This document shows positions 301 to 23,600 of a stretch of DNA of 24,706 nucleotides, in pieces; the stretch's first letter is position 1; every line of letters begins with the position of its first letter. This stretch comes from Bacillota bacterium (lineage in GTDB: Bacteria > Bacillota > Clostridia > Peptostreptococcales > Anaerovoracaceae): NCBI GenBank assembly GCA_017431395.1, contig JAFRLD010000018.1, positions 1-24,706 of the forward strand. The letters run 5' to 3'. The translations under genes and the position numbers were made by a program. The notes under the pieces are model-generated. The model saw only the letters and a list, made by a program, of their open reading frames with translations. It was not told the DNA's origin and did not search any database.

Positions 301-1231
301 GCAGAAACAGAAGACGGCAGCCCTGCGGTCTGCCGGACTGCGCAAGGCGGTCCAGGCCGGCTGGGGGATCCTGACAAACGCGTATATCAATGGGTTTCTG
401 CCGGGAGATCCTGTGATCTATCAGGGACCGCTCAAGCAGCTGTGCGTTCCGGGCATGAACTGCTATTCCTGCCCGGGGGCGCTGGGCTCCTGCCCGATCG
501 GATCCATGCAGGCTATTTTTGATGGAAGAACGAGGGGCATAGGGGCCTACGTGATCGGCTATCTGGCTATCATCGGTCTCTTCATCGGCCGGTTCATCTG
601 CGGCTGGTTCTGCCTGTTCGGCCTGATCCAGGAACTGCTCTATAAGATCCCGACTCCGAAGCTGACGGTGCCGGAGAAGCCGGATAAGATCCTGCGGTAT
701 CTGAAATACCTGATCCTACTGGTCATGGTGTTCCTGCTTCCGTTCTATTACCGGAGCCAGTATGGGGCAGGGGAGCCGTTCTTCTGCAAGTACATCTGTC
801 CGGTGGGAACACTGGAGGGAGGAATTCCGCTGGTCCTGCTGAACAGTATGATGCGGGGAGCCCTCGGATGGCTGTTCCGGTGGAAGTTCCTGCTATTGAT
901 CCTTTGCGCGAGCGCATCGATCTTCATCTACAGGCCTTTTTGTAAATACATCTGCCCATTGGGGGCATTCTATGGGCTTTTCCAGAAAGTAAGCCTGATC
1001 CGTATGCGGGTGGACAGAGAAAAGTGTGTGGATTGCGGTATCTGCGTCAGGACCTGCAAGATGAATGTGGATCCCCATAAGACGCCCAACGATAGCGAAT
1101 GCATCCGGTGCCGCGCCTGTATCAAAGCCTGCCCGATGCATGCCCTTACCATGAAGATCGGCCCCGGACCGGAGCCGCTTCAGGAACGGGTCGCAGCTCA
1201 GGCGGACCAGCCTTTGGGAGAGAGAAGATAA
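293..1231 (+). CDS. NapH/YccM-like 4Fe-4S membrane electron-transfer protein
   Basis: A 312-residue polytopic membrane protein read from a TTG start that overlaps the previous stop. An N-terminal cysteine cluster (C51, C57, C60, C67 in 'CVPGMNCYSCPGALGSC') precedes membrane segments around residues 82-104, 138-150 and 197-211. Membrane-proximal motifs FICGWFCLFG, CKYICPVG and CKYICPLG are typical of NapH/YccM/RdxA-type proteins. The C terminus carries two ferredoxin-type motifs, CVDCGICVRTC and CIRCRACIKACP, for two 4Fe-4S clusters. The family moves electrons across or along the membrane. Lying between the CXXC mini-protein and a thioredoxin lipoprotein, it probably supplies reducing power to extracytoplasmic thiols. 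The electron donor is not visible; the flavoprotein downstream is a candidate. Confidence 0.9.
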   Translation: MDKQKQKTAALRSAGLRKAVQAGWGILTNAYINGFLPGDPVIYQGPLKQLCVPGMNCYSCPGALGSCPIGSMQAIFDGRTRGIGAYVIGYLAIIGLFIGRFICGWFCLFGLIQELLYKIPTPKLTVPEKPDKILRYLKYLILLVMVFLLPFYYRSQYGAGEPFFCKYICPVGTLEGGIPLVLLNSMMRGALGWLFRWKFLLLILCASASIFIYRPFCKYICPLGAFYGLFQKVSLIRMRVDREKCVDCGICVRTCKMNVDPHKTPNDSECIRCRACIKACPMHALTMKIGPGPEPLQERVAAQADQPLGERR

Positions 1232-1236
1232 GATAT

Positions 1237-2307
1237 ATGAAAAAGAAAACGGTTTTAGCGGGAATACTGCTGGCAATGAGCCTGATGTTCGTTCTGGCGG
1301 GCTGCGGAGGAAGCGAGAAGGCGGAGACGGAAGCGGGCGATACTCAGGAGACGCAGCCTGTGGGAAGCGGGTGCGCCTATGACTTCCCGAAGACAGGGTT
1401 CGGATTCGACCTGCCGGAAGGGGTCGAGATCACGAAGGGCAGCATTGACCCTTATGATATAGGAGAGATCCAATACGGCAGCAACCTTTCTATGGCCTGG
1501 CCGGTCTACTGGAACTGTACGGAAGAGGAACGGGCGAGCCTCACAGAAGCGGATGCGGATAAGGTCCATACGGGAGGAAGCTTCATGATCTTTTGCTCCG
1601 GAGATGGAAGAGATCTGGAGCAGACAAAGCAGGCTTATGCCACGCAGATAAAAGAAGAGACCGGGGAGGAACTCTCCGAGGAAGAAATCGCCCTGCTGGA
1701 TGAATTCGAACAGATCCATCAGGAAGGCGAGTATACCTGGTATGTGCTGAAACAGCCGAAGTCGGAAGGCATTCCGAAGGATTATCAGGCGGAATACGAT
1801 GCGTTTTATGATGCGACGGATGAGATCTTAAAGAATATGACCTTTTATGTGCCGCAGGTCTGGAGAGGCGGCAGCGATGGAAGTGACGTCCGTTTCGAGG
1901 CGACGGATCTTGACGGGAACGCTGTTGATTCCGAAGGCCTCTTCTCCCAGAACAAGATCACCATGATCAACATCTGGGGCACTTACTGCGGCCCATGCAT
2001 CAATGAGATGCCGGAGCTTCAGAAGATCCATCAGGAGTACGCGGATAAGGGCGTCACTGTCGTGGGCCTTGTGATAGATGTGCCGGAGGGAAACGACGCG
2101 CAGCTTGCCGAGGCTAAGAGCATCATCAAGGATACGGGCGTGACCTACCTGAATCTGAGGGCCTGGGAGGGCTATAACGAGCAGCTTGCCGCTCCGGCCG
2201 TCCCAACGACTTACTTCGTGGACAGCCAGGGAAAACTGGTCGGCGATCCGATCGTCGGGGCCAATGTGACGAAGTACCGTTCCACGTTGGAAGAGTTTCT
2301 GAAGTAG
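1237..2307 (+). CDS. TlpA-like thioredoxin-fold lipoprotein
   Basis: A 356-residue exported lipoprotein. I place the start at ATG 1237, five bases after the previous stop, because it gives a clean lipoprotein signal (MKKKTVLAG...) ending in the lipobox LAGC with C23 as the lipidated cysteine. Residues about 30-190 form a domain I do not recognise (it begins 'YDFPKTGFGFDLPEGVEI'). Residues about 205-356 are a redoxin/TlpA thioredoxin fold with the active site CGPC (C251, C254) in 'IWGTYCGPCINEMPEL' and the cis-proline region 'AVPTTYFVD'. The expected role is disulfide reduction or isomerisation on the outer face of the membrane. No CcdA/DsbD reductant is encoded nearby, so the Fe-S protein upstream may do that job (inference). 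Confidence 0.9.
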   Translation: MKKKTVLAGILLAMSLMFVLAGCGGSEKAETEAGDTQETQPVGSGCAYDFPKTGFGFDLPEGVEITKGSIDPYDIGEIQYGSNLSMAWPVYWNCTEEERASLTEADADKVHTGGSFMIFCSGDGRDLEQTKQAYATQIKEETGEELSEEEIALLDEFEQIHQEGEYTWYVLKQPKSEGIPKDYQAEYDAFYDATDEILKNMTFYVPQVWRGGSDGSDVRFEATDLDGNAVDSEGLFSQNKITMINIWGTYCGPCINEMPELQKIHQEYADKGVTVVGLVIDVPEGNDAQLAEAKSIIKDTGVTYLNLRAWEGYNEQLAAPAVPTTYFVDSQGKLVGDPIVGANVTKYRSTLEEFLK

Positions 2308-2370
2308 GGGAAGGGATTAAAAATCAGTCATTCATTTAAAAATGCAAATTGCAATAAGGAGGAATAGTTT

Positions 2371-2883
2371 ATGAAAATCACAGTATTGAACGGAAGCCCA
2401 AGAAAGATGAATACGACATTCATGGTCGATGCGTTTGTCAAGGGCGCAGAGGAAGCCGGCCACACCGTCGAAGTCATTCAGGTCGGCAAGATGAAGATCG
2501 CCGGCTGCCTGGCCTGCGAGTATTGCCATGGCAAGGGCGAGGGACAGTGCGTCCAGAAGGATGACATGGAGAAGGTCATCCCGGCTTTACAGGATTGCGA
2601 TATGCTCGTGTTCGCATCCCCGATCTATTATTTCGGTATGACAGCACAGATCAGCGCTGCGATCCAGCGTATGTACAGCGTCCTGAAGCCAGCTAAGGCG
2701 ACCAAGGCAGCTATTCTTCTGTCCTCTCTGTCCCCGAACGTCTACGTCGGCGCGTTCGGAACATACAAGGGCATCTTAGGATTCACCGGCATTGAGGATG
2801 CAGGCATCTTCACCGCTAAGGATCCGGAGAACAGCACGGAGGATCTGGCGAAGACCATTTATGATTTCGCTAAGGGGCTGTAA
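2371..2883 (+). CDS. NADPH-dependent FMN reductase / iron-sulfur flavoprotein
   Basis: A 170-residue flavodoxin-fold protein with a strong AAGGAGG site eight bases before its ATG. The FMN phosphate-binding loop is GSPRKMNT (residues 8-15), and 'FASPIYYFGMTAQISAAIQR' is the second flavin-contact region. Four cysteines (C46, C49, C52, C60 in CxxCxxCx7C) precede KDDM. The compact cysteine pattern is that of Isf-type iron-sulfur flavoproteins, though many family members annotated simply as flavodoxin-family oxidoreductases have it too. At 170 residues it is within the family's usual range. It may feed electrons from NAD(P)H to partners such as the polyferredoxin upstream, but the 63-base gap leaves separate transcription possible. 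Confidence 0.85.
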   Translation: MKITVLNGSPRKMNTTFMVDAFVKGAEEAGHTVEVIQVGKMKIAGCLACEYCHGKGEGQCVQKDDMEKVIPALQDCDMLVFASPIYYFGMTAQISAAIQRMYSVLKPAKATKAAILLSSLSPNVYVGAFGTYKGILGFTGIEDAGIFTAKDPENSTEDLAKTIYDFAKGL

Positions 2884-2924
2884 ACTTTTCGGGCAGCATA
2901 AGGTGCAAAAGGTGCACAGGAACT

Positions 2925-2976
2925 AAAAAACGACGATTCGCGATTGGCCCGTCTGAGAGCGGCCCGAATCGCGAAT
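2925..2976. repeat. Hairpin repeat, copy 1 (diverged)
   Basis: This is an imperfect palindrome. Arms ATTCGCGATT (2936-2945) and AATCGCGAAT (2967-2976) pair perfectly over 10 bp. The centre carries GTCTGAGA followed by a degenerate partner. The left flank A6-CGACG is shared with copy 2; the right flank lacks the matching CGTCGTTTTT and reads TCTCAGG instead. It lies 42 bases beyond the flavoprotein stop and may act as a 3' end structure for that gene. Confidence 0.8.
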
Positions 2977-3030
2977 TCTCAGGAATCAGCCTCTGATCAC
3001 GAGGAAGCATGAGGTGTGCCCATTCACGAA

Positions 3031-3091
3031 AAAAACGACGATTCGCGATTTACCCGTCTGAGAACAGACTGGATCGCGAATCGTCGTTTTT
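3031..3091. terminator. Hairpin repeat, copy 2: probable bidirectional terminator
   Basis: A 19-bp perfect stem joins 3031-3049 (A5-CGACGATTCGCGAT) to 3073-3091 (its complement ending in T5). Inside it, GTCTG (3056-3060) and CAGAC (3065-3069) pair around an AGAA tetraloop. The A-run on one side and the T-run on the other give a U-tract in both directions, which suits the convergent genes on either side (flavoprotein and hisD-like). It belongs to the same family as the hairpins at 2925 and 3145. Confidence 0.75.
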
Positions 3092-3144
3092 AGGTTTTTC
3101 GAGAACGATGGTTGTGGGCAGTGATTGAGAGGTGCAGAATGAAA

Positions 3145-3195
3145 ATTCGCGATTTGGCGGTCTGAGAACAGACCGAATCGCGAATCGTCGTTTTT
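3145..3195. repeat. Hairpin repeat, copy 3
   Basis: Arms ATTCGCGATT (3145-3154) and AATCGCGAAT (3176-3185) pair over 10 bp, and an inner stem GGTCTG/CAGACC (3159-3164 / 3169-3174) closes on an AGAA loop. The right flank CGTCGTTTTT is shared with copy 2; the left flank is not. All three copies have the central GTCTGAGA in the same orientation, so they are direct repeats of one imperfect palindrome. This copy could terminate plus-strand transcription (T5 after the stem). Confidence 0.75.
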
Positions 3196-3205
3196 AAGAT
3201 TGTTG

Positions 3206-3295
3206 CACCAATTGCCGGGATGGTTCCCAAAACCTCATCAATTGCCGGGATGGTTCCCAAAACCTCACCAATTGCCGGGATGTTTCTCAGAACCT
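3206..3295. repeat. Three tandem 30-bp units at the 3' end of the hisD-like gene
   Basis: The units are 3206-3235, 3236-3265 and 3266-3295, each built on CAYCAATTGCCGGGATG followed by KTTCYCARAACCT. The first two differ by one base. The third, which overlaps the last codons of the hisD-like gene, has three further changes. The period is ten codons and is in frame with the gene on the minus strand. The first unit downstream of the coding part supplies the TGA stop, while the two outer units have TGG at the same place. Confidence 0.9.
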
Positions 3296-4546
3296 CTTCT
3301 CCGCCGCGATGGCGTGGGCCATAAGGCCTTCGCCTTTAGCCATGCGGTTCACGAGAGGGGCTATGGCAGAGGAGGCTTCCGGAGTCATGCGCTGGTTGGT
3401 GCAGGTCTTAAGGAAGGTCCCGACCCAGACGCCGCCGGTGTAGCGGGCCGCTTTCACAGTCGGCAGGGTATGATTGGTGCCGGAGGCATAGTCCCCGAAG
3501 ACTTCGGCGGTGTTTGCGCCGATGAAGAGGGAACCATAATTCACGAGATCGTCGATCACTGCGTCAGGATCTGCGATGTTGACCTCCAGATGCTCCGGAG
3601 CATAGTCGTTGCAGACGCGTACGGCTTCGGACAGATCCGAGACGACCACGACTTCCCCATAGTCCTCCCAGGATCTGCGGGCGATACCAGCGGTCTCCAG
3701 CGTTTCAAGTTCTTTCTCCACGGCGGCAATCACGGCGTTCGCCAGATCTTCGTCCGTAGCGAGAAGGTATCCTTTCGCATTGGGGTCATGCTCACACTGG
3801 GCGAGAAGGTCTGCGGCCAGGACTTCCGGATCGGCCTGGCCATCGGCGATCACGAGCACTTCGCTCGGGCCTGCGATGAAGTCGATGCCCACCTGTCCGT
3901 AGCATTGGCGTTTCGCTTCGGCAACGAACTGGTTACCGGGTCCGACGATCACGTCCACCGGGCGGATCTCATCCGTACCGTAGGAAAAAGCGGCGATCGC
4001 CTGTGCGCCGCCGACGGCGTAGATCTCATCCGCGCCGGCCAGGTCCATCGCGACCAGGGTCTTGTAGTGGATGCTCCCGGTACCGTGGACGACCGGAGCC
4101 GTCGCGGCAACGCGGGCCACACCGGCTACTTTGGCCGGGGTGATCAGCATCAGAGCGGTGGAAAACAGCGGGTAGCTTCCGCCGGGCACGTAGCAGCAGC
4201 AGGAGCTGACCGGAATGATCTTATGACCAAGGTAGATCCCCGGCTGCGGGCTGAAGTCCTTCACCTCTGTCATGGAGTCGCGCTGGGCCCGGGCGAAGGC
4301 CTCGATGTTGGCTTTCGCCGCCTTCAGATCTTCAATGTCTGACGGATCCATCTGCGCATAGGCGGCGTCGATCTCCTCCCGGCTGACCCGGAAGGAATCC
4401 CGGACGAAACCGTCGAACCGCTCGCTGTATTCTCGCAGAGCGGCGTCTCCATTCGCACAGACGTTGTCGATAATATCGGAAACGGTGTTTCGCAGCTGAC
4501 GATTGTCCTCCGCAGTCCGTTCTTTTGCTTTCTTGATGATTTTCAT
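3287..4546 (-). CDS. hisD: Histidinol dehydrogenase family protein (HisD or HpsN-like)
   Basis: A 419-residue protein of normal length for the NAD-dependent, zinc-binding histidinol dehydrogenase family, which oxidises histidinol to histidine. Family landmarks are YVPGGSYPL, GGAQAIAAFSYGTD, VGPGNQFVAEAKR, IAGPSEVLVIAD and FGDYASGTNHTLPT. The zinc ligands correspond to Q250, H253, D352 and H411. The start at 4546 has an AGGGGG site seven bases away. It lies 14 bases after radA, not in a his operon. Phrases such as 'NQFVAEAKRQCYGQVGID' and 'VGTFLKTCTNQRMT' remind me of the sulfopropanediol dehydrogenase (HpsN) branch, so the substrate is uncertain. Tandem repeats extend the reading frame beyond the stop. 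Confidence 0.88.
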   Translation of the reverse strand: MKIIKKAKERTAEDNRQLRNTVSDIIDNVCANGDAALREYSERFDGFVRDSFRVSREEIDAAYAQMDPSDIEDLKAAKANIEAFARAQRDSMTEVKDFSPQPGIYLGHKIIPVSSCCCYVPGGSYPLFSTALMLITPAKVAGVARVAATAPVVHGTGSIHYKTLVAMDLAGADEIYAVGGAQAIAAFSYGTDEIRPVDVIVGPGNQFVAEAKRQCYGQVGIDFIAGPSEVLVIADGQADPEVLAADLLAQCEHDPNAKGYLLATDEDLANAVIAAVEKELETLETAGIARRSWEDYGEVVVVSDLSEAVRVCNDYAPEHLEVNIADPDAVIDDLVNYGSLFIGANTAEVFGDYASGTNHTLPTVKAARYTGGVWVGTFLKTCTNQRMTPEASSAIAPLVNRMAKGEGLMAHAIAAEKRF

Positions 4547-4560
4547 ATTCTTCCCCCTAA

Positions 4561-5976: not shown

Positions 5977-5988
5977 AATCTATGATTC

Positions 5989-8310: not shown

Positions 8311-8351
8311 AACAAATAAGTATGACCAGAAGGCAATGCGGGAGGAATGGC

Positions 8352-8825
8352 ATGTACCAGGAAGGCGATAAGATCCTGTATCCGATGCACGGAGCGGGAA
8401 TCATTAAAAAAATCGAAAAGCGTGAAATACTGGGCAGCGTCAAGGATTACTATATCCTGCACGTTCCTTGTGGTGACATGAAAGTCATGATCCCGGTGGA
8501 CAATTGTGATGCCATCGGGGTCCGTCCGATCGTCACCGAAGAAGAGATCTCTAAAGCGATCGGCATTCTTAAGCAGGATTCGACTCAGATGACAGGAAAC
8601 TGGAACAAGCGATACCGTGAGAACATGGAAAAGATCAAGACCGGCAACATCGAACTGGTCGCCGAGATCGTCCGTAATCTGACGAGGATCGACCGAGAGA
8701 ACCGGTTGTCCGCAGGAGAGAAAAAAATGCTTTCTAACGTCCGGAAGATCCTTCAGAGCGAGATCATGCTCGTCCGTAATATTGACGAAGCAGAAGCCCG
8801 GAAGGTGATCGAGGACGCTATTTAA
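8352..8825 (+). CDS. CarD/CdnL-family transcriptional regulator
   Basis: This is 157 residues from ATG 8352, which has GGGAGGAATGGC just before it. An earlier in-frame ATG at 8322 has no ribosome binding site and lies 12 bases from the promoter -10, so I reject it. The N-terminal RNA-polymerase interaction domain (about 1-60) begins YQEGDKILYPMHGAGIIKKI, the typical opening shared by CarD, CdnL and the TRCF interaction domain. The C-terminal part (about 70-157) is helical, ending 'RNIDEAEARKVIEDAI'. Proteins of this family bind the RNA polymerase beta subunit and stabilise open complexes. The stop codon forms part of a 28-base palindrome. Confidence 0.92.
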   Translation: MYQEGDKILYPMHGAGIIKKIEKREILGSVKDYYILHVPCGDMKVMIPVDNCDAIGVRPIVTEEEISKAIGILKQDSTQMTGNWNKRYRENMEKIKTGNIELVAEIVRNLTRIDRENRLSAGEKKMLSNVRKILQSEIMLVRNIDEAEARKVIEDAI

Positions 8826-8850
8826 GCAAAGGCTGGCCAGTCTTTGCTTA
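8823..8850. repeat. Inverted pair of the GCAAAGGCTGGYC word overlapping the carD-like stop
   Basis: Two 14-base arms (8823-8836 and 8837-8850) pair with a single G-T mismatch and no spacer. The left arm starts with the TAA stop codon and contains GCAAAGGCTGG. The transcript would fold into a strong hairpin, but the following bases (TCAAATCTAAAAC) give no U-tract, so it is not a standard intrinsic terminator. The same word occurs at 17055, 19411, 20759, 23364 and 1205. Confidence 0.85.
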
Positions 8851-8881: not shown

Positions 8882-9991
8882 ATGATACAGAAACTGCTAA
8901 GACTCGTACTGACCGTGATCGGACTGATCATCGGCTATGGAGCGTATAAGCTGACCGCCTATATCGCAGCAGGAAGGGGTTATGATCTGCAGGAGCATCT
9001 CTCTATGGGAGAGAATGTGTTCGTAGCAGCGATCTTCGCTATTATTTTTGGTTTATTATTTTACAAACTGACCCCGGCCTTTACCAGACAGGGACAGAAA
9101 GCTGCGGTCAACATCGAATCGGACCTGAAAAAAACATCGACGAACGATCTGATGTTTTCGGCTGGCGGACTTATCGTAGGCCTGGTGATCGCTTATCTTC
9201 TGACCGGCCTGTATGAAGGGATCAATATTCCCATCCTGCAGGTCGTCCTGAACATCATCACGTATCTGATCCTCGGATCCCTTGGCGTGTTGGTGGCAAA
9301 TATCAGGGGCAAGGATATCCGTGAGACGATCCTGGCAGCCCGTAGACCCCAGACCGGTGGCAAGGGCAAAGGCCACAAAACGGACTCAGTGCCGAAGATC
9401 CTGGACACCAGCGTCATCATCGACGGAAGGATCTTCGATATCATGAAGACCGGGTTCCTGGAGGGACCGATCATCATCGCGGAATTCGTTCTGGTGGAAC
9501 TGCAGCACGTGGCAGACTCATCGGATCCCTTAAAACGGAACCGGGGACGCCGCGGACTGGATATCCTGAATAAGATCCAGACCGAATACGGCGTAGAGAT
9601 CTACAACACGGCGGAAGATAAATCGCTGGAGGACATCCCGGAGGTGGATGTCAAGCTGCTGAAGCTCGCGCAGAACATCGGGGGCAAGGTCGTTACCAAC
9701 GATTTCAATCTCAACAAAGTCGCGGCGATAAAAGGTGTTCCCGTACTTAACATCAACGAGCTGGCCAACACACTGAAACCGGTCGTCCTGCCGGGAGAGG
9801 AGATGATCATCTCGCTGGTCAAGGAGGGCAAGGAACGGAATCAGGCGGTCGCCTATCTGGACGACGGGACTATGATCGTCGTTGAGGAAGGCCGCAGATT
9901 CATAGGCCAGACCATTAAGGTCACGGTGACCAGTGTTTTGCAGACGACAGCGGGACGGATGATCTTCGCTAAACCATCGGGAGACAAGTGA
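8882..9991 (+). CDS. PIN/TRAM-domain membrane protein (YacL family)
   Basis: A 369-residue protein with a near-perfect AAGGAGGTGA site. Four membrane segments fill the first 150 residues (about 5-30, 45-62, 95-112, 118-140). A PIN ribonuclease domain follows (about 170-285), with the acidic residue D175 in 'KILDTSVIIDGRIFD', E-containing 'EFVLVELQHVADSSD' and 'VVTNDFNLN'. A TRAM RNA-binding domain ends the protein (about 305-369). This is the architecture of B. subtilis YacL, encoded there beside the same neighbours (CarD-type regulator, ispD, ispF). The family is thought to cleave RNA at the membrane, but the substrate is not established. Confidence 0.93.
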   Translation: MIQKLLRLVLTVIGLIIGYGAYKLTAYIAAGRGYDLQEHLSMGENVFVAAIFAIIFGLLFYKLTPAFTRQGQKAAVNIESDLKKTSTNDLMFSAGGLIVGLVIAYLLTGLYEGINIPILQVVLNIITYLILGSLGVLVANIRGKDIRETILAARRPQTGGKGKGHKTDSVPKILDTSVIIDGRIFDIMKTGFLEGPIIIAEFVLVELQHVADSSDPLKRNRGRRGLDILNKIQTEYGVEIYNTAEDKSLEDIPEVDVKLLKLAQNIGGKVVTNDFNLNKVAAIKGVPVLNINELANTLKPVVLPGEEMIISLVKEGKERNQAVAYLDDGTMIVVEEGRRFIGQTIKVTVTSVLQTTAGRMIFAKPSGDK

Positions 9992-11177: not shown

Positions 11178-12920
11178 ATGAAATTATCAAGAGCACACTT
11201 AAAAACACTTAGAGAAGTACCGACAGAGGCGGAGATCCCAAGCCATATCCTGCTTTTGCGTACGGGAATGATCCGCAAGCTGGTATCCGGCGTATACGGA
11301 TTCATGCCGATGGGGCAGAGGACCCTCCGCAAGATCGAACAGATCATCCGGGAAGAGATGGACGCTGCCGGCGGGCAGGAGATCCTGATGTCCGCCGTCC
11401 AGCCGGCGGAGCTGTGGCAGGAATCCGGCAGATGGTACGCCTACGGACCAGAGCTTTGGAGACTGAAGGATAGAAACGGCAGAGATTTCTGCCTGGGGCC
11501 GACGCACGAGGAGATCTTCACGGACATCGTGAGAAATGACATCTCTTCCTATCGGCAGCTCCCGATGAACCTCTATCAGATCCAGACAAAATACAGAGAT
11601 GAAGCGCGTCCGAGATTCGGGCTCATGAGAAGCCGGGAATTCATCATGAAGGATGCCTACTCCTTTGACAGAGATGAGGCGGGCCTGGACGAAAGCTACC
11701 GCATCATGTATGAAGCATATGAGAAGGTCTTCACCCGGTGCGGACTGACGTTCCGCCCGGTCGAAGCGGACTCCGGAGCCATCGGGGGCAGCAATTCCCA
11801 CGAGTTCACCGCCCTCTCCGAGGTCGGCGAGAGTGAGATCGCTTACTGCGAGAAGTGTAACATGGCAGCAACGACCGAACGTGCGGCCTGTACCGATGCT
11901 CCCGCCCAGGACGATGAGATGCTCCCGATCGAGGAAGTATATACTCCTGAGACTTCCACGATCGAAGCCGTCGCAAACTACCTTGGCCTGGATACGAAGC
12001 AGACCCTGAAAGCCCTTCTCTTTGTCAAATACAATGAGCAGGGCGAGGAAGACGGCTACGTGGCAGCCTTTGTCCGCGGCGACAGGGAGCTGAATATGAC
12101 GAAGCTGGTCAATGCGCTGGATATTCCGGAGCACGCCATCGAATTCGCAGACGAGGAAGCCATGGGCGAAGCCACAGGCTGTGTCGGCGGCTTCACCGGT
12201 CCGGTAGGCCTTCATGACTGCACGATCGTGGTGGACAGTGAAGTGCCCGGGTTAAAGAACCTCTGCGCAGGCGCCTGCAAAAAAGACCATCACATGAAAA
12301 ATGTCAATTATGGACGTGATTACACAGCGGATATCGTGACGGACATAAAAGTCCTGGCCGAGGGAGATCCCTGCCCGGTCTGCGGTGCTCCCGTCAAGTA
12401 CGCACGCGGGATCGAGGTGGGCCAGGTATTCAAACTGGGCACCAAGTACAGCGAGTCCATGGGAGCATACTACAAGGATGAGAACATGGAGAACCACCCG
12501 ATCGTTATGGGATGCTATGGGATCGGCGTGACCCGTACCATGGCCGCTGTTGTGGAACAGCACCACGATGATAACGGCATCATCTGGCCGATCTCCGTCG
12601 CTCCGTATCACGTGATCATCACGCTGATGAAGCCGGATGACGAGACTCAGGCTAAGGTCGCGGATCAGATCTATGAAGAGCTGCTGGCTCGGGGCGTAGA
12701 GGTCGTGCTCGACGATCGCAAGGAGCGCCCGGGCGTTAAGTTCAAGGATGCGGACCTGCTGGGGATCCCGATCCGGATCACCGTCGGCCGGGGCGCTGCG
12801 GACGGCATGATCGAATACAAGATGCGCCGTGACGCGGACCGGACCGATATGACGATCGAGGAAGGCATTGAAACAGCCGTGAAGACTGTGGAAGCGGAAC
12901 GGTACGGGATCGTCAAGTGA
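11178..12920 (+). CDS. proS: Prolyl-tRNA synthetase, bacterial type with editing domain
   Basis: A 580-residue class II synthetase that charges tRNA-Pro; the length matches the bacterial ProS type. The catalytic core has motif 1 around 'MGQRTLRKIEQIIREEMDAAG', the conserved 'LGPTHEE', motif 2 'YRDEARPRFGLMRSREFIMKDAYSFD' and motif 3 'GCYGIGVTRTMAAVVEQ'. The insertion (about 225-395) is the INS editing domain, which removes mischarged alanine. The C-terminal anticodon-binding domain starts near 'PYHVIIT' (about 475). The RBS AAGGAG is 11 bases from the ATG. Its TGA overlaps the GTG of the first chromate transporter gene, which is an unusual partner for a tRNA synthetase. Confidence 0.97.
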   Translation: MKLSRAHLKTLREVPTEAEIPSHILLLRTGMIRKLVSGVYGFMPMGQRTLRKIEQIIREEMDAAGGQEILMSAVQPAELWQESGRWYAYGPELWRLKDRNGRDFCLGPTHEEIFTDIVRNDISSYRQLPMNLYQIQTKYRDEARPRFGLMRSREFIMKDAYSFDRDEAGLDESYRIMYEAYEKVFTRCGLTFRPVEADSGAIGGSNSHEFTALSEVGESEIAYCEKCNMAATTERAACTDAPAQDDEMLPIEEVYTPETSTIEAVANYLGLDTKQTLKALLFVKYNEQGEEDGYVAAFVRGDRELNMTKLVNALDIPEHAIEFADEEAMGEATGCVGGFTGPVGLHDCTIVVDSEVPGLKNLCAGACKKDHHMKNVNYGRDYTADIVTDIKVLAEGDPCPVCGAPVKYARGIEVGQVFKLGTKYSESMGAYYKDENMENHPIVMGCYGIGVTRTMAAVVEQHHDDNGIIWPISVAPYHVIITLMKPDDETQAKVADQIYEELLARGVEVVLDDRKERPGVKFKDADLLGIPIRITVGRGAADGMIEYKMRRDADRTDMTIEEGIETAVKTVEAERYGIVK

Positions 12921-14112: not shown

Positions 14113-14571
14113 ATGTGGACTGGAGGAGTAAGAGCGATCGTGCTCGATGACAGGAAGAGGATGCTGCTGGTGCGGCAGTACCATGACGGCAAGGATATAT
14201 GGATGGTACCCGGTGGCACGATCGAAGAAGGAGAGAGCGCGGCGGATGCGGCGCTTCGGGAAGTGAAAGAGGAAACGAATCTGGACATCGGGCTCGACGG
14301 GCTTCTCTGGCACGTGGAGGAGGTATCCGAGCGGGGGCAGCGCTTCGTGAATTTCTTCCTGGGGCATCTTAAGGATCCCTCGCAAAAGCTGGTCCTCGGA
14401 ACCGACCCGGAGCTGGCGGAGGATGCCCAGGTTTTGCGCGAGGTGGCATTCCTTGACCGGGAAGAAGTAGGGAAGCTGGAAGTGCTCTACCCGGAATATC
14501 TCAAGGATGAATTCTGGCAACTCCTGGATGGAGGACAATTACAGTATAACGCGTTCCGCATGAGGGACTGA
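14113..14571 (+). CDS. Nudix hydrolase
   Basis: A 152-residue protein of the Nudix superfamily, which cleaves nucleoside diphosphates linked to another group. The Nudix box runs from G35 to L57 (GTIEEGESAADAALREVKEE then TNL) and has all catalytic glutamates (E41, E50, E53, E54). N56 stands where the consensus has glycine. Residues 1-20 (GGVRAIVLDDRKRMLLVRQ) form the usual opening strand. The substrate cannot be told from the sequence. AGGAGA precedes the ATG by ten bases, and the gene ends 15 bases before the cyclophilin gene. Confidence 0.92.
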   Translation: MWTGGVRAIVLDDRKRMLLVRQYHDGKDIWMVPGGTIEEGESAADAALREVKEETNLDIGLDGLLWHVEEVSERGQRFVNFFLGHLKDPSQKLVLGTDPELAEDAQVLREVAFLDREEVGKLEVLYPEYLKDEFWQLLDGGQLQYNAFRMRD

Positions 14572-15105: not shown

Positions 15106-16644
15106 ATGAACACGATATACAGATCGGTTTCAGGCATCATGATCGCGGTGATGGTCCTGCTGGCAGGGATCGCCGTCAGCGGAATACTGCAGCCATCTTC
15201 TGCCGCAGCTAAAGCTAAGCCGGCACTCTCGAAAAAGAGCGTGACCATGACGGTCCAGACGACGAAGGCTCTCAAGGTGAAGAATGCCAAACAGAAGGTC
15301 AAATGGACCACCGGCGATAAGAAGATCGTGACCTTCATGAGCAAAAAAGGCAAGTACAGCCAGTCCATCATACTGAAGGCGGGCAAAAAGACCGGCACCT
15401 GCTACGTGAAGGCGAAGATCGGGAAGAAGACACTAAAGTGCAAGGTCACGGTAAAAGCGAAGATGGAGCCGAGACCGGATCCGCCAAAACCGCCGGATTC
15501 GATCGTTGAAGCTGCGGCCAGATTCTCTGTGAACTTTCTGCAGGATTCCATGTCATTAGACCAGAACAGGAACCTGCTGATCTCACCGGATTCCATCATG
15601 ACGGCCATGGCCATGGTCGAGAACGGTGCTCAGGGGGAGACCCTGGAGCAGATGGAAAAAGCCATGTCCGGTCAGGCAGGGACCGCGGAAGCATTCAATG
15701 AGTATCTCCAGTATATGAATGACCGGCTGGCAGGATCGAAGAGCATCCTGTTCACATCGGCGAATTCCATCTGGGTGAGAGAAGGGGCGCTTCAGATCAA
15801 GGACGGGTTTAAGGATACCAACAGCAAATATCATCACGCGCAGCTGCTGGAACGGGCCTTCGATCAGCAGACCGTCAGTGAAATGAACACCTGGGTCAAA
15901 GATAATACCAGAGGGATGATCAAGGATATCATCGACCAGCTGGACCCGATGGACCGCCTCGTTCTGATCAACGCCATCGCTTTCGATGGGGAATGGGCAG
16001 AGCCTTTTGAAAAAGACTATGGACAGGTCCAGGAAGACCAGGATTTCACCGATGCGGACGGCAATAAACAGAAAGTGACCATGCTCACGCAGAATCTATC
16101 TAACGGCAGGTGTTATCTCGAAGCGGCCGGCGGCACAGGGTTCGTGAAGCCTTATAAAGGAGGAGAAGTCGCGTTCGCCTGCCTGCTCCCGCCGGAAGGA
16201 AAGTCCGTTGATGATTTCGTGCTGGATCTGGACGGCCAAAAATTGCAGGAAGCATGGTACTCCCGCAGCGATGAGTACATCGTGGACATCCGACTTCCGA
16301 AGTTCACGTACGATTATGACATGTCGGCGGGCCCGGTCCTGCAGGGGCTTGGCATAGAGCGTGCCTTCACGGATCAGGCGGATTTCTCGGGGATCGCGGA
16401 ACCAACGGTTGAGACGCCGGGACTCCATATCGATGAGGTGATCCACAAGACGCACATCGAGGTCAGCGAGGACGGGACGAAAGCGGCGGCGGCTACGGCG
16501 GTCACCATGAAAGCGAACTCGGCAGCTCCGATGGAGAAAGAGACCAGGAAGGTCTATCTGGACCGGCCGTTCGTCTATGCCCTCATGGATGTAGAGACGG
16601 GGACCCCGTTGTTCCTGGGCGTGGTTCGCTATGCGACCAAATAG
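15106..16644 (+). CDS. Secreted serpin with N-terminal surface-type domain
   Basis: A 512-residue exported protein. A signal sequence (about 1-35, hydrophobic core GIMIAVMVLLAGIAVSGIL) precedes a Lys-rich beta domain (about 40-122, 'VKWTTGDKKIVTFMSKKGK', 'KTLKCKVTV') like the Ig-like (BIG2-type) repeats of clostridial surface proteins. A proline linker (PRPDPPKPPD) leads to a full serpin fold (about 130-512; 'NLLISPDSIMTAMAMVENGA', 'VLINAIAFDGEWAEPF', 'RPFVYALMDVETGTPLFLG'). The hinge EDGTKAAAAT (P17 to P8, from E455) has the small residues of inhibitory serpins. Counting from it puts P1-P1' near N471-S472, but the loop is longer than in antitrypsin, so this is uncertain. It probably traps host or microbial proteases. 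Confidence 0.93.
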   Translation: MNTIYRSVSGIMIAVMVLLAGIAVSGILQPSSAAAKAKPALSKKSVTMTVQTTKALKVKNAKQKVKWTTGDKKIVTFMSKKGKYSQSIILKAGKKTGTCYVKAKIGKKTLKCKVTVKAKMEPRPDPPKPPDSIVEAAARFSVNFLQDSMSLDQNRNLLISPDSIMTAMAMVENGAQGETLEQMEKAMSGQAGTAEAFNEYLQYMNDRLAGSKSILFTSANSIWVREGALQIKDGFKDTNSKYHHAQLLERAFDQQTVSEMNTWVKDNTRGMIKDIIDQLDPMDRLVLINAIAFDGEWAEPFEKDYGQVQEDQDFTDADGNKQKVTMLTQNLSNGRCYLEAAGGTGFVKPYKGGEVAFACLLPPEGKSVDDFVLDLDGQKLQEAWYSRSDEYIVDIRLPKFTYDYDMSAGPVLQGLGIERAFTDQADFSGIAEPTVETPGLHIDEVIHKTHIEVSEDGTKAAAATAVTMKANSAAPMEKETRKVYLDRPFVYALMDVETGTPLFLGVVRYATK

Positions 16645-16693: not shown

Positions 16694-16722
16694 TTGACAA
16701 ACAACAAATAATGCATTACTAT
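16694..16722 (+). promoter_or_regulatory. SigA-type promoter of the T-box/trpB unit
   Basis: A consensus -35 TTGACA (16694-16699), a 17-base spacer and TACTAT (16717-16722) are followed by an AT-rich start region. Transcription would start near 16729-16731, just before the T-box leader. This is the best promoter match in the window. Confidence 0.85.
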
Positions 16723-16729
16723 AGTATCA

Positions 16730-17043: not shown

Positions 17044-17054
17044 TATGCGAATAA

Positions 17055-17076
17055 GCAAAGGCTGGCCAGCCTTTGC
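17055..17076. repeat. Perfect 22-bp palindrome made of two GCAAAGGCTGG words
   Basis: GCAAAGGCTGG (17055-17065) meets its exact complement (17066-17076) with no spacer. It lies between the T-box terminator and the trpB start. The following bases (AGAAAGAAAG) give no U-tract. It is nearly identical to the palindrome at 8823-8850, although the two sites have different neighbours. Confidence 0.88.
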
Positions 17077-17139
17077 AGAAAGAAAGCCCGCTGCAGAGAC
17101 TCCGAATGACAGTTTTAATCAAAGAAAGGAGTCAGAACG

Positions 17140-18519: not shown

Positions 18520-18552
18520 CAGGCGCCAGACCTGCAAGCGGGAAATAACACG

Positions 18553-18593
18553 AAAGAAACGTCGAAAGAATCGTCTTCGGCGTTTCTTTTTTT
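18553..18593 (+). terminator. Intrinsic terminator after trpB
   Basis: AAAGAAACGTCGAA pairs with TTCGGCGTTTCTTT (one G-U and one bulge) around a short loop and continues into a run of seven to eight T. It lies 33 bases beyond the trpB stop and closes the T-box unit. Confidence 0.88.
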
Positions 18594-18602
18594 CGGCCTG
18601 AA

Positions 18603-18611
18603 TGGTATACT
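18603..18611 (+). promoter_or_regulatory. Extended -10 promoter for the M50-pcrA-ligA group
   Basis: TGGTATACT is an extended -10 (TGN plus TATACT) just after the trpB terminator. No good -35 is visible at the usual distance, which is tolerable for extended -10 promoters. The first gene starts about 36 bases downstream. Confidence 0.6.
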
Positions 18612-18646
18612 AACTATGTATTGACTTTTTGATAGGAGGAATCGAA

Positions 18647-19369
18647 TTGAGACGAAGCAATATAGACATTTCTTTCATCGTGATCATCCTGATCCTGGCG
18701 AGCATGTCGATCCGGGAGGGAGCCTTCACGAATCCGTCGGAGTGGATCCTTTCGAAGATCCTGATCGTTCCGGGGATCATCATCGGCCTGACCTGCCATG
18801 AATTCGCGCATGCGTTCGTTGCCTACAAACTGGGGGACCGTACACCTAAACTCCAGGGGCGCGTGACCCTCAATCCCATGGCCCACATCGACTGGATGGG
18901 CCTCGCGGCACTGTTCTTCGTAGGCTTCGGCTGGGGGCAGCCGGTACAGATCGATCCGTACCAGTTCCGCCATAGACGCAGGGACGAGTTCCTGGTCTCC
19001 ATCGCCGGCGTCGCTATGAATCTGCTGCTTGCCATCGCGTTCACCTTCGTGATCAAGATCCTCATGATGGTGACCGGAAGCGACTGGAATGCCACCGGTT
19101 TCGTCGGGGACCTCTGGACGATGATGCTTTATATCGTTCAGATCAACCTGGTGCTGATGGTCTTCAACCTGATCCCGGTACCGCCGCTGGATGGCTTCAA
19201 CATCATCGCTCAGATCTTCAATTTCGGGCAGAAGGAGATCTACTGGCAGATCTACCGGTACGGCAACTGGATCCTGGTAGCGCTGATCGTTTTCGGCGTG
19301 ACCGGCATGATCCTCTCTCCGTGCGTGAGCTTCCTGTTCAATCTGCTCGTGAACACGATACTTCTGTGA
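18647..19369 (+). CDS. Site-2 protease family (M50) membrane metalloprotease
   Basis: This is 240 residues from a TTG at 18647, chosen because AGGAGG (18634-18639) is seven bases away; the longer frame begins before that site. An N-terminal hydrophobic segment (about 7-20) precedes the zinc motif HEFAH (H51, E52, H55) in the second membrane helix. The third zinc ligand lies in 'FNLIPVPPLDGFN' (D182). Residues 'GRVTLNPMAHIDWMGLAALFFVGFGWGQPV' are the M50 linker typical of small YwhC/Rip-like proteases. Such proteins cut substrates within the membrane; this short form lacks a PDZ domain. The substrate is unknown. It ends 12 bases before pcrA. Confidence 0.92.
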   Translation: MRRSNIDISFIVIILILASMSIREGAFTNPSEWILSKILIVPGIIIGLTCHEFAHAFVAYKLGDRTPKLQGRVTLNPMAHIDWMGLAALFFVGFGWGQPVQIDPYQFRHRRRDEFLVSIAGVAMNLLLAIAFTFVIKILMMVTGSDWNATGFVGDLWTMMLYIVQINLVLMVFNLIPVPPLDGFNIIAQIFNFGQKEIYWQIYRYGNWILVALIVFGVTGMILSPCVSFLFNLLVNTILL

Positions 19370-19381
19370 CCTGGTGATACG

Positions 19382-21616
19382 ATGGACTATTTAGACAGAC
19401 TCAATGATATGCAAAGGCTGGCCGCCGTCCATACCGAAGGCCCTCTGCTGATCCTGGCTGGAGCCGGAAGCGGTAAGACGAGCACGATGACCTGCCGGAT
19501 CGCCTATCTGATCCAGGAAAAAGGCGTCAGCCCATACAATATCCTCGCCGTCACCTTCACGAACAAAGCCGCGAAAGAAATGAGGGACCGGGTGGAGCAG
19601 CTGGTCGGATCCGGACTTAACATGTGGATCCTGACCTTTCATTCCGCCTGCCTGCGGATCCTTCGGAGCCACGCGGATGTGCTGGGCTACGGACGGGATT
19701 TCGCGGTCTATGACCCGGCGGATCAGAAGACGCTGGTCAAAAATATCTGCAAGGACCTGCAGATCGACACGAAAAAATTCAATCCGGCCTACTTCCTCAG
19801 CATCATCAGCAAGTGCAAGGAGGAGCGGATCACCCCGAAGGACTATCCGCGTGAATACGGCACGGACTTCCGGGAGGAGATGATCCACAAGGTATACGAT
19901 GCCTACGAGACGCAGCTCCATAAGAATAACGCGATGGACTTCGATGACCTGCTTCTCAACGCCGTCCGTGTGTTCGAGCAGGACGAGGCCGTATTGCTGA
20001 AATACCGGAACCGTTTCCGGTACATCATGGTCGATGAGTACCAGGACACCAACCAGATCCAGTACACGTTCGTCCGGATGCTGGCGGAGGAGCACCGCAA
20101 TCTCTGCGTGGTCGGGGACGATGACCAGTGCATCTACCAGTGGCGGGGTGCCGACATCCGCAACATCCTGGAGTTCGAGAAGGATTTCCCGGGGACGAAG
20201 GTCGTCAAGCTGGATCAGAACTACCGCTCGACCGGCAATATCCTGGAAGCCGCCCACAGCGTCATCTCCCACAATGCCGCCCGTAAACCGAAGAAGCTCT
20301 GGACCGAGGCGTCCGGAGGCAGCCGGATCACCTATTTTCAGGCTGAGGATGAGCGGGAAGAGGCGAATTATATCGCCAGTGAGATCCACCGCCTGACCGC
20401 GGGCAGCTATACGCTGGAGGAAGGCAGGAAAGAAGGAAGGAAGTTCAGCGAATTCGCGATCCTGTACCGGACCAATGCCCAGTCCAGGACCTTCGAGGAA
20501 GCCCTTTCCTACAGGAACATCCCTTACCGGGTGCTTGGGGGACTGAGATATTACGACCGCAAAGAGATCAAGGACATCATGTGCTATATGCGGATCGTGC
20601 AGAACCGGGCGGATGATCTGGCCCTGGTAAGGATCATCAATGAACCAAAGCGCGGGGTCGGCGGCAAGACGATCGAGAAACTGCAGACCCTGGCCCGTGT
20701 GCGCGGGGAGAGCCTGTTCGATACGCTTCTGGACAAGGACGTGGTCGCTTCGCTTTCTGCAAAGGCTGGTCAGGGCATCCGCGAACTGACGGAGATGATC
20801 CTGTCCTTTTCGGAAGAAAGCGGGAATATGCGCGTCTCCGATCTCTATGATGGGCTGCTGGTCCGCACCGGTTATATGAAGATGCTGGAGGATCAGAACA
20901 CGGTCGAAAGCGAGACGAGGATCGAAAACCTGATGGAGTTCAAATCCGTCATCTATGACTACGAAGAGGAAGATAAGGATCTTTCCCTCTCGGATTTCAT
21001 GGAGAGGATCGCCCTTCTCGCGGATGTAGATAACCATGATGCCGGCGAGAATGCGGTCGTCCTGATGACGCTGCACAGCGCCAAGGGCCTGGAATTCCCC
21101 TTCGTCTTTATGCCGGGCATGGAGGACGGGCTGTTCCCCGGATGGCGGGCATTCGACCGTCCGGACGGGCTGGAGGAGGAGCGCCGGCTCTGTTACGTCG
21201 GGATCACCCGGGCGAAGGAACGCCTATGGATGACGAGCGCCCAGAGAAGGATGCTTTACGGCAAGATCGACTACACCAGAGAGTCTCAGTTCATGCGGGA
21301 GATCGATCCGAAGCTGCTGGAGGGAGACGGCGTCTATCAGAAGAAGCCATCGGCAGGGATGTTCCGGGATGGGGCGCGCGCGCCTGAGGCGATCCGTCCG
21401 TTCGATCAGCTGAAATACGCCCGCCAGATGACGAAGCGAAACGCCGAGGCCATGCAGCAGTCGGCCGCCGATTCCTTCGCGCAGGGCGACCGGGTCTCCC
21501 ATCCGAAATTCGGGGAGGGCGAGGTCCTGGAAGCCAGCGGGAAGATCCTGCGGGTCCGGTTCGCAGACGGAGACAAGAAGCTCGCGATCGGATTCGCGCC
21601 ACTTAAGAAACTGTAG
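19382..21616 (+). CDS. pcrA: ATP-dependent DNA helicase PcrA (UvrD/Rep family)
   Basis: A 744-residue superfamily 1A helicase that unwinds 3'-tailed DNA in repair and plasmid replication. Landmarks are the Q motif 'LNDMQRLAAVHTEGP', Walker A GAGSGKT (27-33, K32), 'AVTFTNKAAKEMRDRV', motif II DEYQDTNQ (D218, E219), motif III 'GDDDQCIYQWRGAD', motif IV 'LDQNYRST', motif V 'VVLMTLHSAKGLEF' and motif VI 'ERRLCYVGITRAKERL'. The C-terminal Tudor-like domain (about 698-744, 'GDRVSHPKFGEGEV') binds RNA polymerase. The RBS is weak (CTGGTGAT), hinting at coupling to the M50 gene. Two copies of the GCAAAGGCTGGYC word lie inside it, in different frames. Confidence 0.97.
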   Translation: MDYLDRLNDMQRLAAVHTEGPLLILAGAGSGKTSTMTCRIAYLIQEKGVSPYNILAVTFTNKAAKEMRDRVEQLVGSGLNMWILTFHSACLRILRSHADVLGYGRDFAVYDPADQKTLVKNICKDLQIDTKKFNPAYFLSIISKCKEERITPKDYPREYGTDFREEMIHKVYDAYETQLHKNNAMDFDDLLLNAVRVFEQDEAVLLKYRNRFRYIMVDEYQDTNQIQYTFVRMLAEEHRNLCVVGDDDQCIYQWRGADIRNILEFEKDFPGTKVVKLDQNYRSTGNILEAAHSVISHNAARKPKKLWTEASGGSRITYFQAEDEREEANYIASEIHRLTAGSYTLEEGRKEGRKFSEFAILYRTNAQSRTFEEALSYRNIPYRVLGGLRYYDRKEIKDIMCYMRIVQNRADDLALVRIINEPKRGVGGKTIEKLQTLARVRGESLFDTLLDKDVVASLSAKAGQGIRELTEMILSFSEESGNMRVSDLYDGLLVRTGYMKMLEDQNTVESETRIENLMEFKSVIYDYEEEDKDLSLSDFMERIALLADVDNHDAGENAVVLMTLHSAKGLEFPFVFMPGMEDGLFPGWRAFDRPDGLEEERRLCYVGITRAKERLWMTSAQRRMLYGKIDYTRESQFMREIDPKLLEGDGVYQKKPSAGMFRDGARAPEAIRPFDQLKYARQMTKRNAEAMQQSAADSFAQGDRVSHPKFGEGEVLEASGKILRVRFADGDKKLAIGFAPLKKL

Positions 21617-21644
21617 TAGCAAATAAGGAACTTAGTATATAACG

Positions 21645-23600
21645 ATGAGTGAGAAGCGGGAACGAATCAAAGAACTGGTCGAGGTCCTGAACCGTGCGTC
21701 CAGGGCATATTACCAGGCGGATGAAGAGATCATGTCCAACCGGGAGTATGACCGCCTTTATGATGAGCTCGAAGAACTCGAGAAGGAGACCGGGATCGTC
21801 CTGGCAGCAAGTCCTACGGTCCGGGTCGGATATGAAGTCGTCAGCAGCCTGCCGAAGCAGAGGCATCCTTCTCCGATGCTCTCGCTGGACAAGACGAAGG
21901 ATACCGCCGCTCTCGCGGACTGGCTCGGAGATCAGGAGGGACTGCTCTCATGGAAGCTGGATGGTCTGACGGTCGTCCTGACCTATGAGAACGGAGAGCT
22001 CACAGGGGCGGTCACCCGCGGAGACGGGACCACCGGGGAAGTGATCACAGGCAATGCGAGGGTATTCGATAATATCCCGCTGCGGATCCCGTCAAAAGAA
22101 GAGACGGTCCTTCGGGGCGAAGCGGTGATCAGCTACCCGGTGTTCGAGCAGATCAATGCGGCCATCGGGGATGCGGACGCGAAATACAAGAATCCGAGGA
22201 ACCTCTGCAGCGGCTCGGTGCGGCAGCTGGACAGCAGCGTGACCGCGCGCCGGCATGTCCGGTTCTATGCTTTCTCCCTGGCCTCCGGCGGAGGGGAAAT
22301 GAAATACCGCCATGAGCAGATGGAATGGATCCGCTCACAAGGGTTCGAGACGGTGGAGAACATCCCGGTCACGAAAGATACCGTGGCGGATGCGGTGCAA
22401 ACGTTCGCGGAGCGGATCGCGGATTTCGAGATCCCATCGGACGGCCTGGTCCTGATCTATGATGATATCGAATACGGGAGATCGCTGGGATCGACGGCAA
22501 AATTCCCGAGGGATTCCATCGCCTTCAAATGGCAGGATGAGATGGCGGAAACAACGCTGCGCGAGATCCTGTGGAACCCGTCGCGGACCGGCCTGATCAA
22601 CCCGATCGCGGTCTTCGATCCGGTGGAGCTCGAGGGGACTACGGTCAGCCGGGCTTCCGTGCATAACCTGAGCATTGTAGGTCAGCTGCAGCTCGCACCC
22701 GGAGACCGGATCCAGGTCTATAAGGCGAATATGATCATCCCGCAGATCGAGAAGAACCTGTCCGCAGGGCCAGGCCATATGGCGGCGCCGCCGCCGGAGC
22801 ACTGTCCTGCCTGCGGCGGGGGAACGGTGATCCGCGATGAGAACGGGATCCGGACGCTGCACTGCCCGAACCCGGACTGCCCGGCGAAAAAGATCAAGGC
22901 GTTCACGCATTTTGTCAGCCGGAATGCCATGAATATCGAAGGGCTTTCGGAGGCGACCCTCGAGAAACTGATCGGTATGGGAGCCCTGCATGAGCTCGCG
23001 GACCTGTTCCGCCTGGACCGGTTCCGGGACCAGATCGTAAGCATGGAAGGCTTCGGCGAGAAGTCCTATGAGAATCTGATCGCATCCTGTAACAGGGCGG
23101 CGCACACTACGCCGGACCGGCTGCTGAACAGCCTGGGGATCCCGGGGATCGGCTCCGCGAACGCGAGGATGATCTGCCGCGCCGCGGGGAACCAGTGGCA
23201 AAAGGTGCAGCATATGACACAGGAGGAGATGCTCGCCATCCCGGGGATCGGAGACGTTCTGGCCAGGGATCTCACCGCGTTTTTCGCGGACGAGAAGAAT
23301 ATACGGATGCTGGAGGCCCTTCTGCCGCAGCTGACGCTGGACGAGAGTTTCGAAGACGGGACAGACCAGCCTTTGCAGGGGAAGACCTTCGTGATCACAG
23401 GAAGCCTCACGGAGTTCGCTAACCGTGATGCGGCGAAGGAACGGATCCAGCAGCTTGGCGGCAAAGTCGCCGGCTCGGTGAGCAAGAAGACGGATTATCT
23501 GATCAACAACGATATCGGATCCGGCTCCTCAAAGAACAAAAAAGCTAAGGAACTAGGCGTTCCGATCATAACTGAGAAAGACTTTCTGGAGATGATCTAA
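21645..23600 (+). CDS. ligA: NAD-dependent DNA ligase LigA
   Basis: A 651-residue ligase that seals nicks using NAD. Domain Ia (1-60) and the adenylation domain include 'SPMLSLDKTKD' and the AMP-attachment motif KLDG (K104). An OB fold with 'TGLINPIAVFDPVELEGTTVSRASVHN' follows. Cysteines C387, C390, C407 and C412 bind zinc, a helix-hairpin-helix region covers about 425-560, and a BRCT domain about 575-651 starts 'LQGKTFVITGSL'. Two positions conserved in E. coli differ: the glutamate two before the lysine is serine (SWKLDG), and the 'DGVVIK' lysine is isoleucine (I271 in DGLVLIYDD). I recall both in Lachnospiraceae ligases, so it is probably functional. It is 28 bases from pcrA, its usual partner. 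Confidence 0.95.
   Translation: MSEKRERIKELVEVLNRASRAYYQADEEIMSNREYDRLYDELEELEKETGIVLAASPTVRVGYEVVSSLPKQRHPSPMLSLDKTKDTAALADWLGDQEGLLSWKLDGLTVVLTYENGELTGAVTRGDGTTGEVITGNARVFDNIPLRIPSKEETVLRGEAVISYPVFEQINAAIGDADAKYKNPRNLCSGSVRQLDSSVTARRHVRFYAFSLASGGGEMKYRHEQMEWIRSQGFETVENIPVTKDTVADAVQTFAERIADFEIPSDGLVLIYDDIEYGRSLGSTAKFPRDSIAFKWQDEMAETTLREILWNPSRTGLINPIAVFDPVELEGTTVSRASVHNLSIVGQLQLAPGDRIQVYKANMIIPQIEKNLSAGPGHMAAPPPEHCPACGGGTVIRDENGIRTLHCPNPDCPAKKIKAFTHFVSRNAMNIEGLSEATLEKLIGMGALHELADLFRLDRFRDQIVSMEGFGEKSYENLIASCNRAAHTTPDRLLNSLGIPGIGSANARMICRAAGNQWQKVQHMTQEEMLAIPGIGDVLARDLTAFFADEKNIRMLEALLPQLTLDESFEDGTDQPLQGKTFVITGSLTEFANRDAAKERIQQLGGKVAGSVSKKTDYLINNDIGSGSSKNKKAKELGVPIITEKDFLEMI

Follow-up and report, generated by a model that had tools for sequence, protein, structure and literature searches.

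Why does one 13-base word recur at six dispersed loci within 24,706 nucleotides of a clostridial draft genome? The question was raised by a first-pass annotation of contig JAFRLD010000018.1 (assembly GCA_017431395.1, Bacillota bacterium, family Anaerovoracaceae; positions 1 to 24,706, here called the window), which suggested an uptake word resembling the DNA uptake sequence (DUS) of Neisseria or the uptake signal sequence (USS) of Haemophilus, a Chi-like recombination signal, or a nucleoid signal. We confirm the word system and find it in most of the genus; the signal is a core, GCAAARGC, followed by a clade-specific 3′ ending, which is TGG in the window's clade. Among the suggested functions we favor the first, and near strand symmetry speaks against Chi: the word is probably a self-DNA uptake word with dialects, similar in kind to DUS and USS but of separate origin, in Bacillota, where we infer both uptake and a receptor. 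Self-recognition uptake words have been described for two Gram-negative families (PMC7811141, in excerpt), and among open-licence papers we found no published uptake word in Bacillota.

Abundance and structure of the word

The window's genome (G000) is a 79% complete draft of 1,614,188 bases in 255 contigs. It contains 161 exact copies of CAAAGGCTGGYC, 81 forward and 80 reverse, and no copy of the reversed word in either orientation; because the reversed word is a poor control for AT-rich genomes, we preferred Markov and shuffle controls. A rough estimate of the random expectation is about 0.4 copies, which places the observed count about 400-fold above chance. Nor are the copies confined to the window or to its genome: CAAAGGCTGGYC is abundant in five of the 49 genomes of the genus (G067, 163; G000, 161; G001, 146; G070, 99; G010, 76), occurs nine times in G011, and is found at most five times in each of the other 43. 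A metagenome-assembled genome from roe-deer jejunum, RGIG4357, also has the palindrome formed by two overlapping copies, with further words in one of its two stretches.

Within the window there are seven exact matches to CAAAGGCTGGYC at six loci (those at 17056 on the plus strand and 17064 on the minus strand form an overlapping inverted pair), as well as three further copies with one mismatch (8835 on the minus strand, the imperfect arm of a second pair, and CAAAAGCTGGTC at 18 and 14383 on the plus strand). At one mismatch or fewer this gives 10 matches against a mean of 0.23 in dinucleotide shuffles, and none of 100 shuffles reached 10. Every copy listed in the first-pass annotation lies where it was placed, and the two loci described there as intergenic inverted pairs are indeed such pairs, one perfect (17055-17076) and one with a single mismatch (8826-8847); the two CAAAAGCTGGTC copies had been missed. 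The copies, together with two isolated cores, are as follows.

18 to 29, plus strand: variant CAAAAGCTGGTC with one mismatch, near the left window edge
1205 to 1216, minus strand: CAAAGGCTGGTC, antisense, at the 3′ end of a NapH/MauN-like ferredoxin-type open reading frame (ORF; 293-1231, plus); only the 12-mer is present because the base before the copy is C
8826 to 8847, both strands: overlapping inverted pair, GCAAAGGCTGGCC on the plus strand (8826-8838) and GCAAAGACTGGCC on the minus strand (8835-8847, one mismatch)
9366 to 9373, plus strand: core alone, GCAAAGGC, in ORF 8882-9991, which we take to be PIN/TRAM-like; possibly background
11252 to 11259, minus strand: core alone, GCAAAAGC, then AGG, in proS (proline--tRNA ligase); possibly background
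14382 to 14394, plus strand: GCAAAAGCTGGTC, in a Nudix hydrolase-like ORF (14113-14571, plus); absent from the first-pass list
17055 to 17076, both strands: perfect overlapping inverted pair GCAAAGGCTGGCCAGCCTTTGC, between ORF 15106-16644 and a TrpB-like gene
19411 to 19423, plus strand: GCAAAGGCTGGCC, in pcrA
20759 to 20771, plus strand: GCAAAGGCTGGTC, in pcrA
23364 to 23376, minus strand: GCAAAGGCTGGTC, antisense in ligA

The 13-base word is genuine and recurrent, but its last two bases (YC) are not a real boundary. The top 10-mers in 214 kb of G000 include CAAAGGCTGG (51 observed, 0.66 expected), and CAAAAGCTGG is enriched by itself in 214 kb of the same genome (25 observed, 0.67 expected). 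Across 597 kb from five genomes we counted 136 copies of GCAAAGGCTGG where 0.48 would be expected; the AAA and the C and G at zero-based positions 7 and 9 are almost invariant, and one-mismatch neighbors differ most often at the first base, at R (A for G, 42), and at T (A instead, 17). Because of this neighbor pattern we regard the 13-mer as one spelling of GCAAARGC plus TGG. The flanks of 37 exact full-context copies from the window and the first loci have in common only a preceding G (31 of 37) and, more weakly, a T (20 of 37). The density of CAAARGCTGG is about 350 to 440 per Mb in three sampled genomes of the TGG clade, and relatives hold up to about 860 cores per Mb.

Placement in genes, strand, and spread

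In 476 kb from G000, G001, and G067, 164 of 191 CAAARGCTGG words lie inside a single ORF, in all six frames, with 86 sense and 78 antisense; an mRNA-level signal was rejected on the latter count. Synonymous-codon shuffles (60 per genome) remove nearly all of the excess in ORFs, leaving means of 2.25 (maximum, 6) against 65 in G000, 1.08 (maximum, 4) against 40 in G001, and 1.58 (maximum, 7) against 61 in G067, or about 4.9 against 166 in the three together (enrichment, 29- to 39-fold). The view that protein conservation does not explain the copies is thus upheld, and codon or peptide bias is ruled out. For the core, the corresponding ratio is 3.4 to 4.4 in carrier groups. The short core shows a sense excess in all sampled carriers (428:310, P = 1.6e-5), which we ascribe to Ala-Lys-Ala codons, and the longer TGG word is balanced.

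That the word might be a mobile element, a repeat family, a terminator, or a codon or peptide by-product is suggested by the two window loci that are hairpins between genes, but the lack of common flanks in the 37 copies, the mostly gap-free homologous sites (see below), and the loss of the excess on synonymous shuffling leave us with almost no credence in such an origin. A mobile repeat, either a repetitive extragenic palindrome (REP) or a miniature inverted-repeat transposable element (MITE), was rejected for want of common flanks and of insertions at empty sites. A terminator family was rejected since only 27 of the 191 words fall outside a single ORF and the window hairpins have no clear T-run. 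Overlapping inverted pairs are scarce, the spacing-10 gap occurring once in G000, once in G001, and not at all in G067.

The word is evenly spread, occupying 41 of 42 10-kb bins (mean, 4.10; variance, 3.75), and the 27 words outside a single ORF are a modest excess over the 7 to 10% of bases that lie there. The strand-bias check proposed in the first-pass annotation gives near symmetry: in segments with clear GC skew, 447 cores are on the G-rich strand and 377 on the opposite one (P = 0.016), compared with 796:254 for ORFs and 139:71 for the reversed pattern, and the per-genome splits are 37:37 in G000 and 48:57 in G067. These figures bear on a Chi-like signal that AddAB or a similar nuclease would recognize when breaks are repaired. 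The word is short, dispersed, and intragenic with a conserved core, as Chi sites are; the G-rich-strand excess is in the right direction; matches of 1,100 to 1,200 amino acids may, on our reading of the sequences, be AddA; and the scarcity in newly arrived prophages described below would also be expected. The strand excess is small, however, beside those of the ORFs and the reversed pattern, and TGG words divide 86:78 relative to ORFs. Known Chi sites are also shorter and change more slowly between close relatives than this word, with its eleven positions and clade-specific 3′ ends. We consider a Chi-like role unlikely, and set aside Chi and FtsK orienting polar sequences (KOPS) because strand bias is slight and no marked replication-strand bias was found.

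Dialects and distribution across the genus

The spelling of the word tracks phylogeny, with G036 and G011 as exceptions. In the window's clade the core is followed by TGG in 178 of 280 cases; at the same place a sister group (G003, G034, G006, and G024) has A at a frequency of 0.81 followed by A at 0.73, and a large clade (15 sampled species) has A at 0.69; two additional groups of our own definition have no strong ending, and word-poor species no clear one. Counts of GCAAARGCAA in all 49 genomes follow the same division: 632 in G003, 131 to 315 in its three sisters, and 129 to 387 in the 15 A-ending species, against 6 to 53 in the 14 word-poor genomes and 11 to 27 in G000, G067, G001, G070, G010, and G011.

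Core density is bimodal over the 49 genomes, with 14 at 70 to 186 per Mb and 35 at 305 to 862 per Mb; the densities and AA counts used for the tree and group tests were entered by hand with rounded genome sizes. Relative to Markov expectation the core is enriched 4- to 10-fold in most sampled carriers (32 of 38 genomes covered). On a PcrA tree (46 of 49 rows) only two changes between word-rich and word-poor are required, compared with a mean of 12.2 after label shuffling, and none of 500 shuffles was as low; the single misplaced row is the ambiguous G036. Outside the genus the core appears to be at background level: in a sweep of 393 genomes of the order, the 368 from other genera look like background (densities judged by eye), the highest noticed being about 400 per Mb in G342, and in a sample of the family outside the genus (18 genomes, of which 5 were dropped because the first contig was too short) the core is at 0 to 2.9 times expectation in the 13 stretches kept.

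Binding sites of a chromosome-organizing or nucleoid protein would account for the even spread (41 of 42 bins), the use of both strands, and the modest excess outside ORFs. The dialects, however, change fast between close species, which is unusual for nucleoid proteins, and we judge this reading improbable.

Other words were seen in some genomes that are word-poor or belong to another genus. In the word-poor G021 (L182 and L236), ATGCAAAGGG and TGCAAAGGGC are enriched (5 observed against 0.05 to 0.06 expected), possibly as a relic or another dialect. An alternative word in the word-poor G064 was rejected because its top word sits in recurring hairpins; these are terminator-like repeats around AAAATCGCAGA (L110 and L111). 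Likewise, a candidate in G230, from another genus, was rejected since its top word is confined to two or three local clusters.

Site history and prophages

Codon alignments of pcrA and ligA across the fetched relatives show words gained and lost by substitution at the same columns, where other clades sometimes carry their own spelling. The first-pass annotation had asked whether insertions of the word vary between strains; between these relatives, homologous sites are largely gap-free, with one codon missing from the more distant rows at a single ligA site. At pcrA 19411-19423 the word is found only in the window's own genome among 17 aligned rows, the other 16 being gap-free. The counterpart of pcrA 20759-20771 is GCAAAGGCTGG in G067, G001, and G010, GCAAAGGCAGG in G070 and G006, and GCAAAGGCAAG in G003, and at ligA 23364-23376 the word is present in G067, G070, and G001, with a one-mismatch form in G010.

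Three prophage stretches (G008, G020, and G032), located by their portal gene and taken from three of the 12 genomes that had a portal match, hold 4, 1, and 1 cores against 12.4, 7.0, and 6.2 predicted from chromosomal density (6 against 25.6 in sum; combined P = 3.8e-6). A methylation or other defense mark labeling self DNA in the cell (restriction-modification, bacteriophage exclusion [BREX], or phosphorothioation) would likewise set the chromosome apart from these three related prophages, and the asymmetry of the word is compatible with it. To our knowledge, such systems do not normally drive an 11- to 13-mer to the hundreds-fold over-representation seen here, and we regard a defense mark as very unlikely.

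Competence and pilus-like genes

The search for competence genes proposed in the first-pass annotation finds them spread over the genus, with ComEC in 34 of 41 genomes, ComEA above cut-off in 43 of 49, and DprA in 45 of 49; the window's genome has ComEA (a 281-amino-acid open frame) and DprA. We found no link between these genes and the word: 26 of the 30 carriers and 8 of the 11 word-poor genomes have ComEC (hand count). ComEA was rejected as the protein that reads the word, since nothing unusual is apparent in its HHH part; in the TGG clade its linker is longer. The ComEA ORFs at L254, L256, and L257 in that clade measure 269 to 279 amino acids compared with 204 to 255 in the others printed whole, and the extra length is a Gly/Ser-rich linker.

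A pilus-like cluster, annotated with Pfam on one genome, comprises a T2SSE ATPase (PilT-like in our reading), a T2SSF protein, a transglutaminase-like protein that is probably a lipoprotein, and small membrane or pilin-like proteins. Among the matches listed, it is at least partly seen in most of 17 genomes, word-poor species included. At L200:252-4914 and in relatives, T2SSE, T2SSF, DUF4860, other small pilin-like proteins, and the transglutaminase-like protein form an unusual arrangement of this kind. Type IV pilins keep a glutamate in their hydrophobic helix, and in one small cluster protein a glutamate inside such a helix is kept in seven of seven aligned rows. Two small cluster proteins are predicted to have a long N-terminal helix and a beta domain (mean predicted local distance difference test [pLDDT] scores, 85.4 and 87.3). 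The small pilin-like proteins are no more than candidates for the word receptor; a pilin-like alignment (A2) compared with sequences of solved structures gave one weak, irrelevant match (E = 0.78).

Interpretation as an uptake word

We favor the uptake reading because it brings together a constant core with clade dialects, only slight strand bias, words that are evenly spread and arise by substitution, depletion in three prophages, and the presence of ComEA, ComEC, and DprA, and it fits the tested properties better than its rivals. We also think it likely, if with somewhat less assurance, that this is a third independently evolved uptake-word system and the first in Bacillota, read by a pilin of a non-ComG-like cluster. 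It would have three or more dialects, and one clade would have lost the word or never acquired it.

Several observations weigh against uptake. G036 (321 per Mb; Markov ratio, 2.1) and G011 (385 per Mb; 9 TGGYC and 14 AA endings) fit the dialect pattern poorly, and the word-poor group still has more cores in ORFs than shuffling leaves (52, against 31.1 on average and at most 41; ratio, 1.7). The window's own draft, which is 79% complete, yielded no ComEC, and no gene that we found splits carriers from noncarriers, since ComEA, ComEC, DprA, and the pilus-like cluster occur in word-poor species too. The three prophages are all homologous and so are not three independent tests. There is the slight G-rich-strand excess of the core (447:377, P = 0.016), though it is below the reversed pattern's 139:71, and there are few of the overlapping inverted pairs that are reported to be common in Neisseriaceae.

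If the word does serve uptake, a surface receptor of the competence apparatus would bind it on free double-stranded DNA; our best guess for this receptor is a pilin-like protein beside the T2SSE/PilT-like ATPase and T2SSF, or a partner acting with ComEA. The pilus would pull the DNA in, ComEA and ComEC would deliver a single strand to the cell interior, and there it would be recombined by DprA and RecA. Because word-bearing fragments would be taken up and recombined more often, chance mutations that create the word would spread until the genome was full of it (molecular drive). Drift in receptor preference would shift the ending, producing dialects along the species tree, and prophages would be word-poor.

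The USS of Pasteurellaceae has lineage variants and common flanking tracts; the genus word is likewise short and dispersed with lineage variants but differs in sequence and phylum and shows no common flanking tracts in 37 aligned copies. Chi sites (RecBCD/AddAB) share with it the short, dispersed, intragenic form, although the genus word has little strand bias, greater length, and dialects. Like classical Gram-positive competence (ComEA, ComEC, ComG pseudopilus, and DprA), the genus has ComEA, ComEC, and DprA throughout, but the cluster we saw is of T2SSE ATPase, T2SSF, transglutaminase-like, and pilin-like proteins, no search having been aimed at the ComG operon. A further parallel is with the DUS of Neisseriaceae, whose receptor is ComP and whose dialects vary on a fixed core along the phylogeny (PMC3630211, in excerpt): both are short words on both strands, intragenic, with phylogenetic dialects, some intergenic hairpin pairs, and competence genes. 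The genus word differs in sequence, in its Bacillota host, and in its few overlapping inverted pairs. The Neisseria DUS proper (GCCGTCTGAA or a dialect) was rejected because the enriched word is GCAAARGC plus an ending, GCCGTCTGAA not having been counted separately; the DUS core, CTG, is present by coincidence in the TGG spelling but not in the AA spelling. For USS, a receptor, ComN, has been predicted (PMC12616744, in excerpt).

If the uptake reading is correct, the dialects and the word-poor clade would provide a natural experiment within one genus on the rise, drift, and loss of uptake words, and would suggest that the genus transforms mainly with DNA of its own kind. The signal can also serve as a guide for finding unknown uptake words in other genomes.

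Other features of the window

The inverted pair at 8826-8847 lies directly 3′ of the stop of ORF 8322-8825, where a hairpin is possible, and the GCAAAGGCTGGCCAGCCTTTGC hairpin at 17055-17076 has no clear T-run. ORF 15106-16644, upstream of the latter, is presumably serpin-like and has no NCBIfam match; the NapH/MauN-like NCBIfam matches of ORF 293-1231 are below cut-off. At 2926-3195, four copies of AAAAACGACGATTCGCGAT, which occur in either orientation, are separated by imperfect palindromes (GTCTGAGAACAGAC), and related units are found at L077 and L078; these repeats look REP/MITE-like and unrelated to the word. Three tandem 30-base units with CAATTGCCGGGATG occupy 3209-3282, just past the 3′ end of ORF 3287-4546, which we take to be hisD-like.
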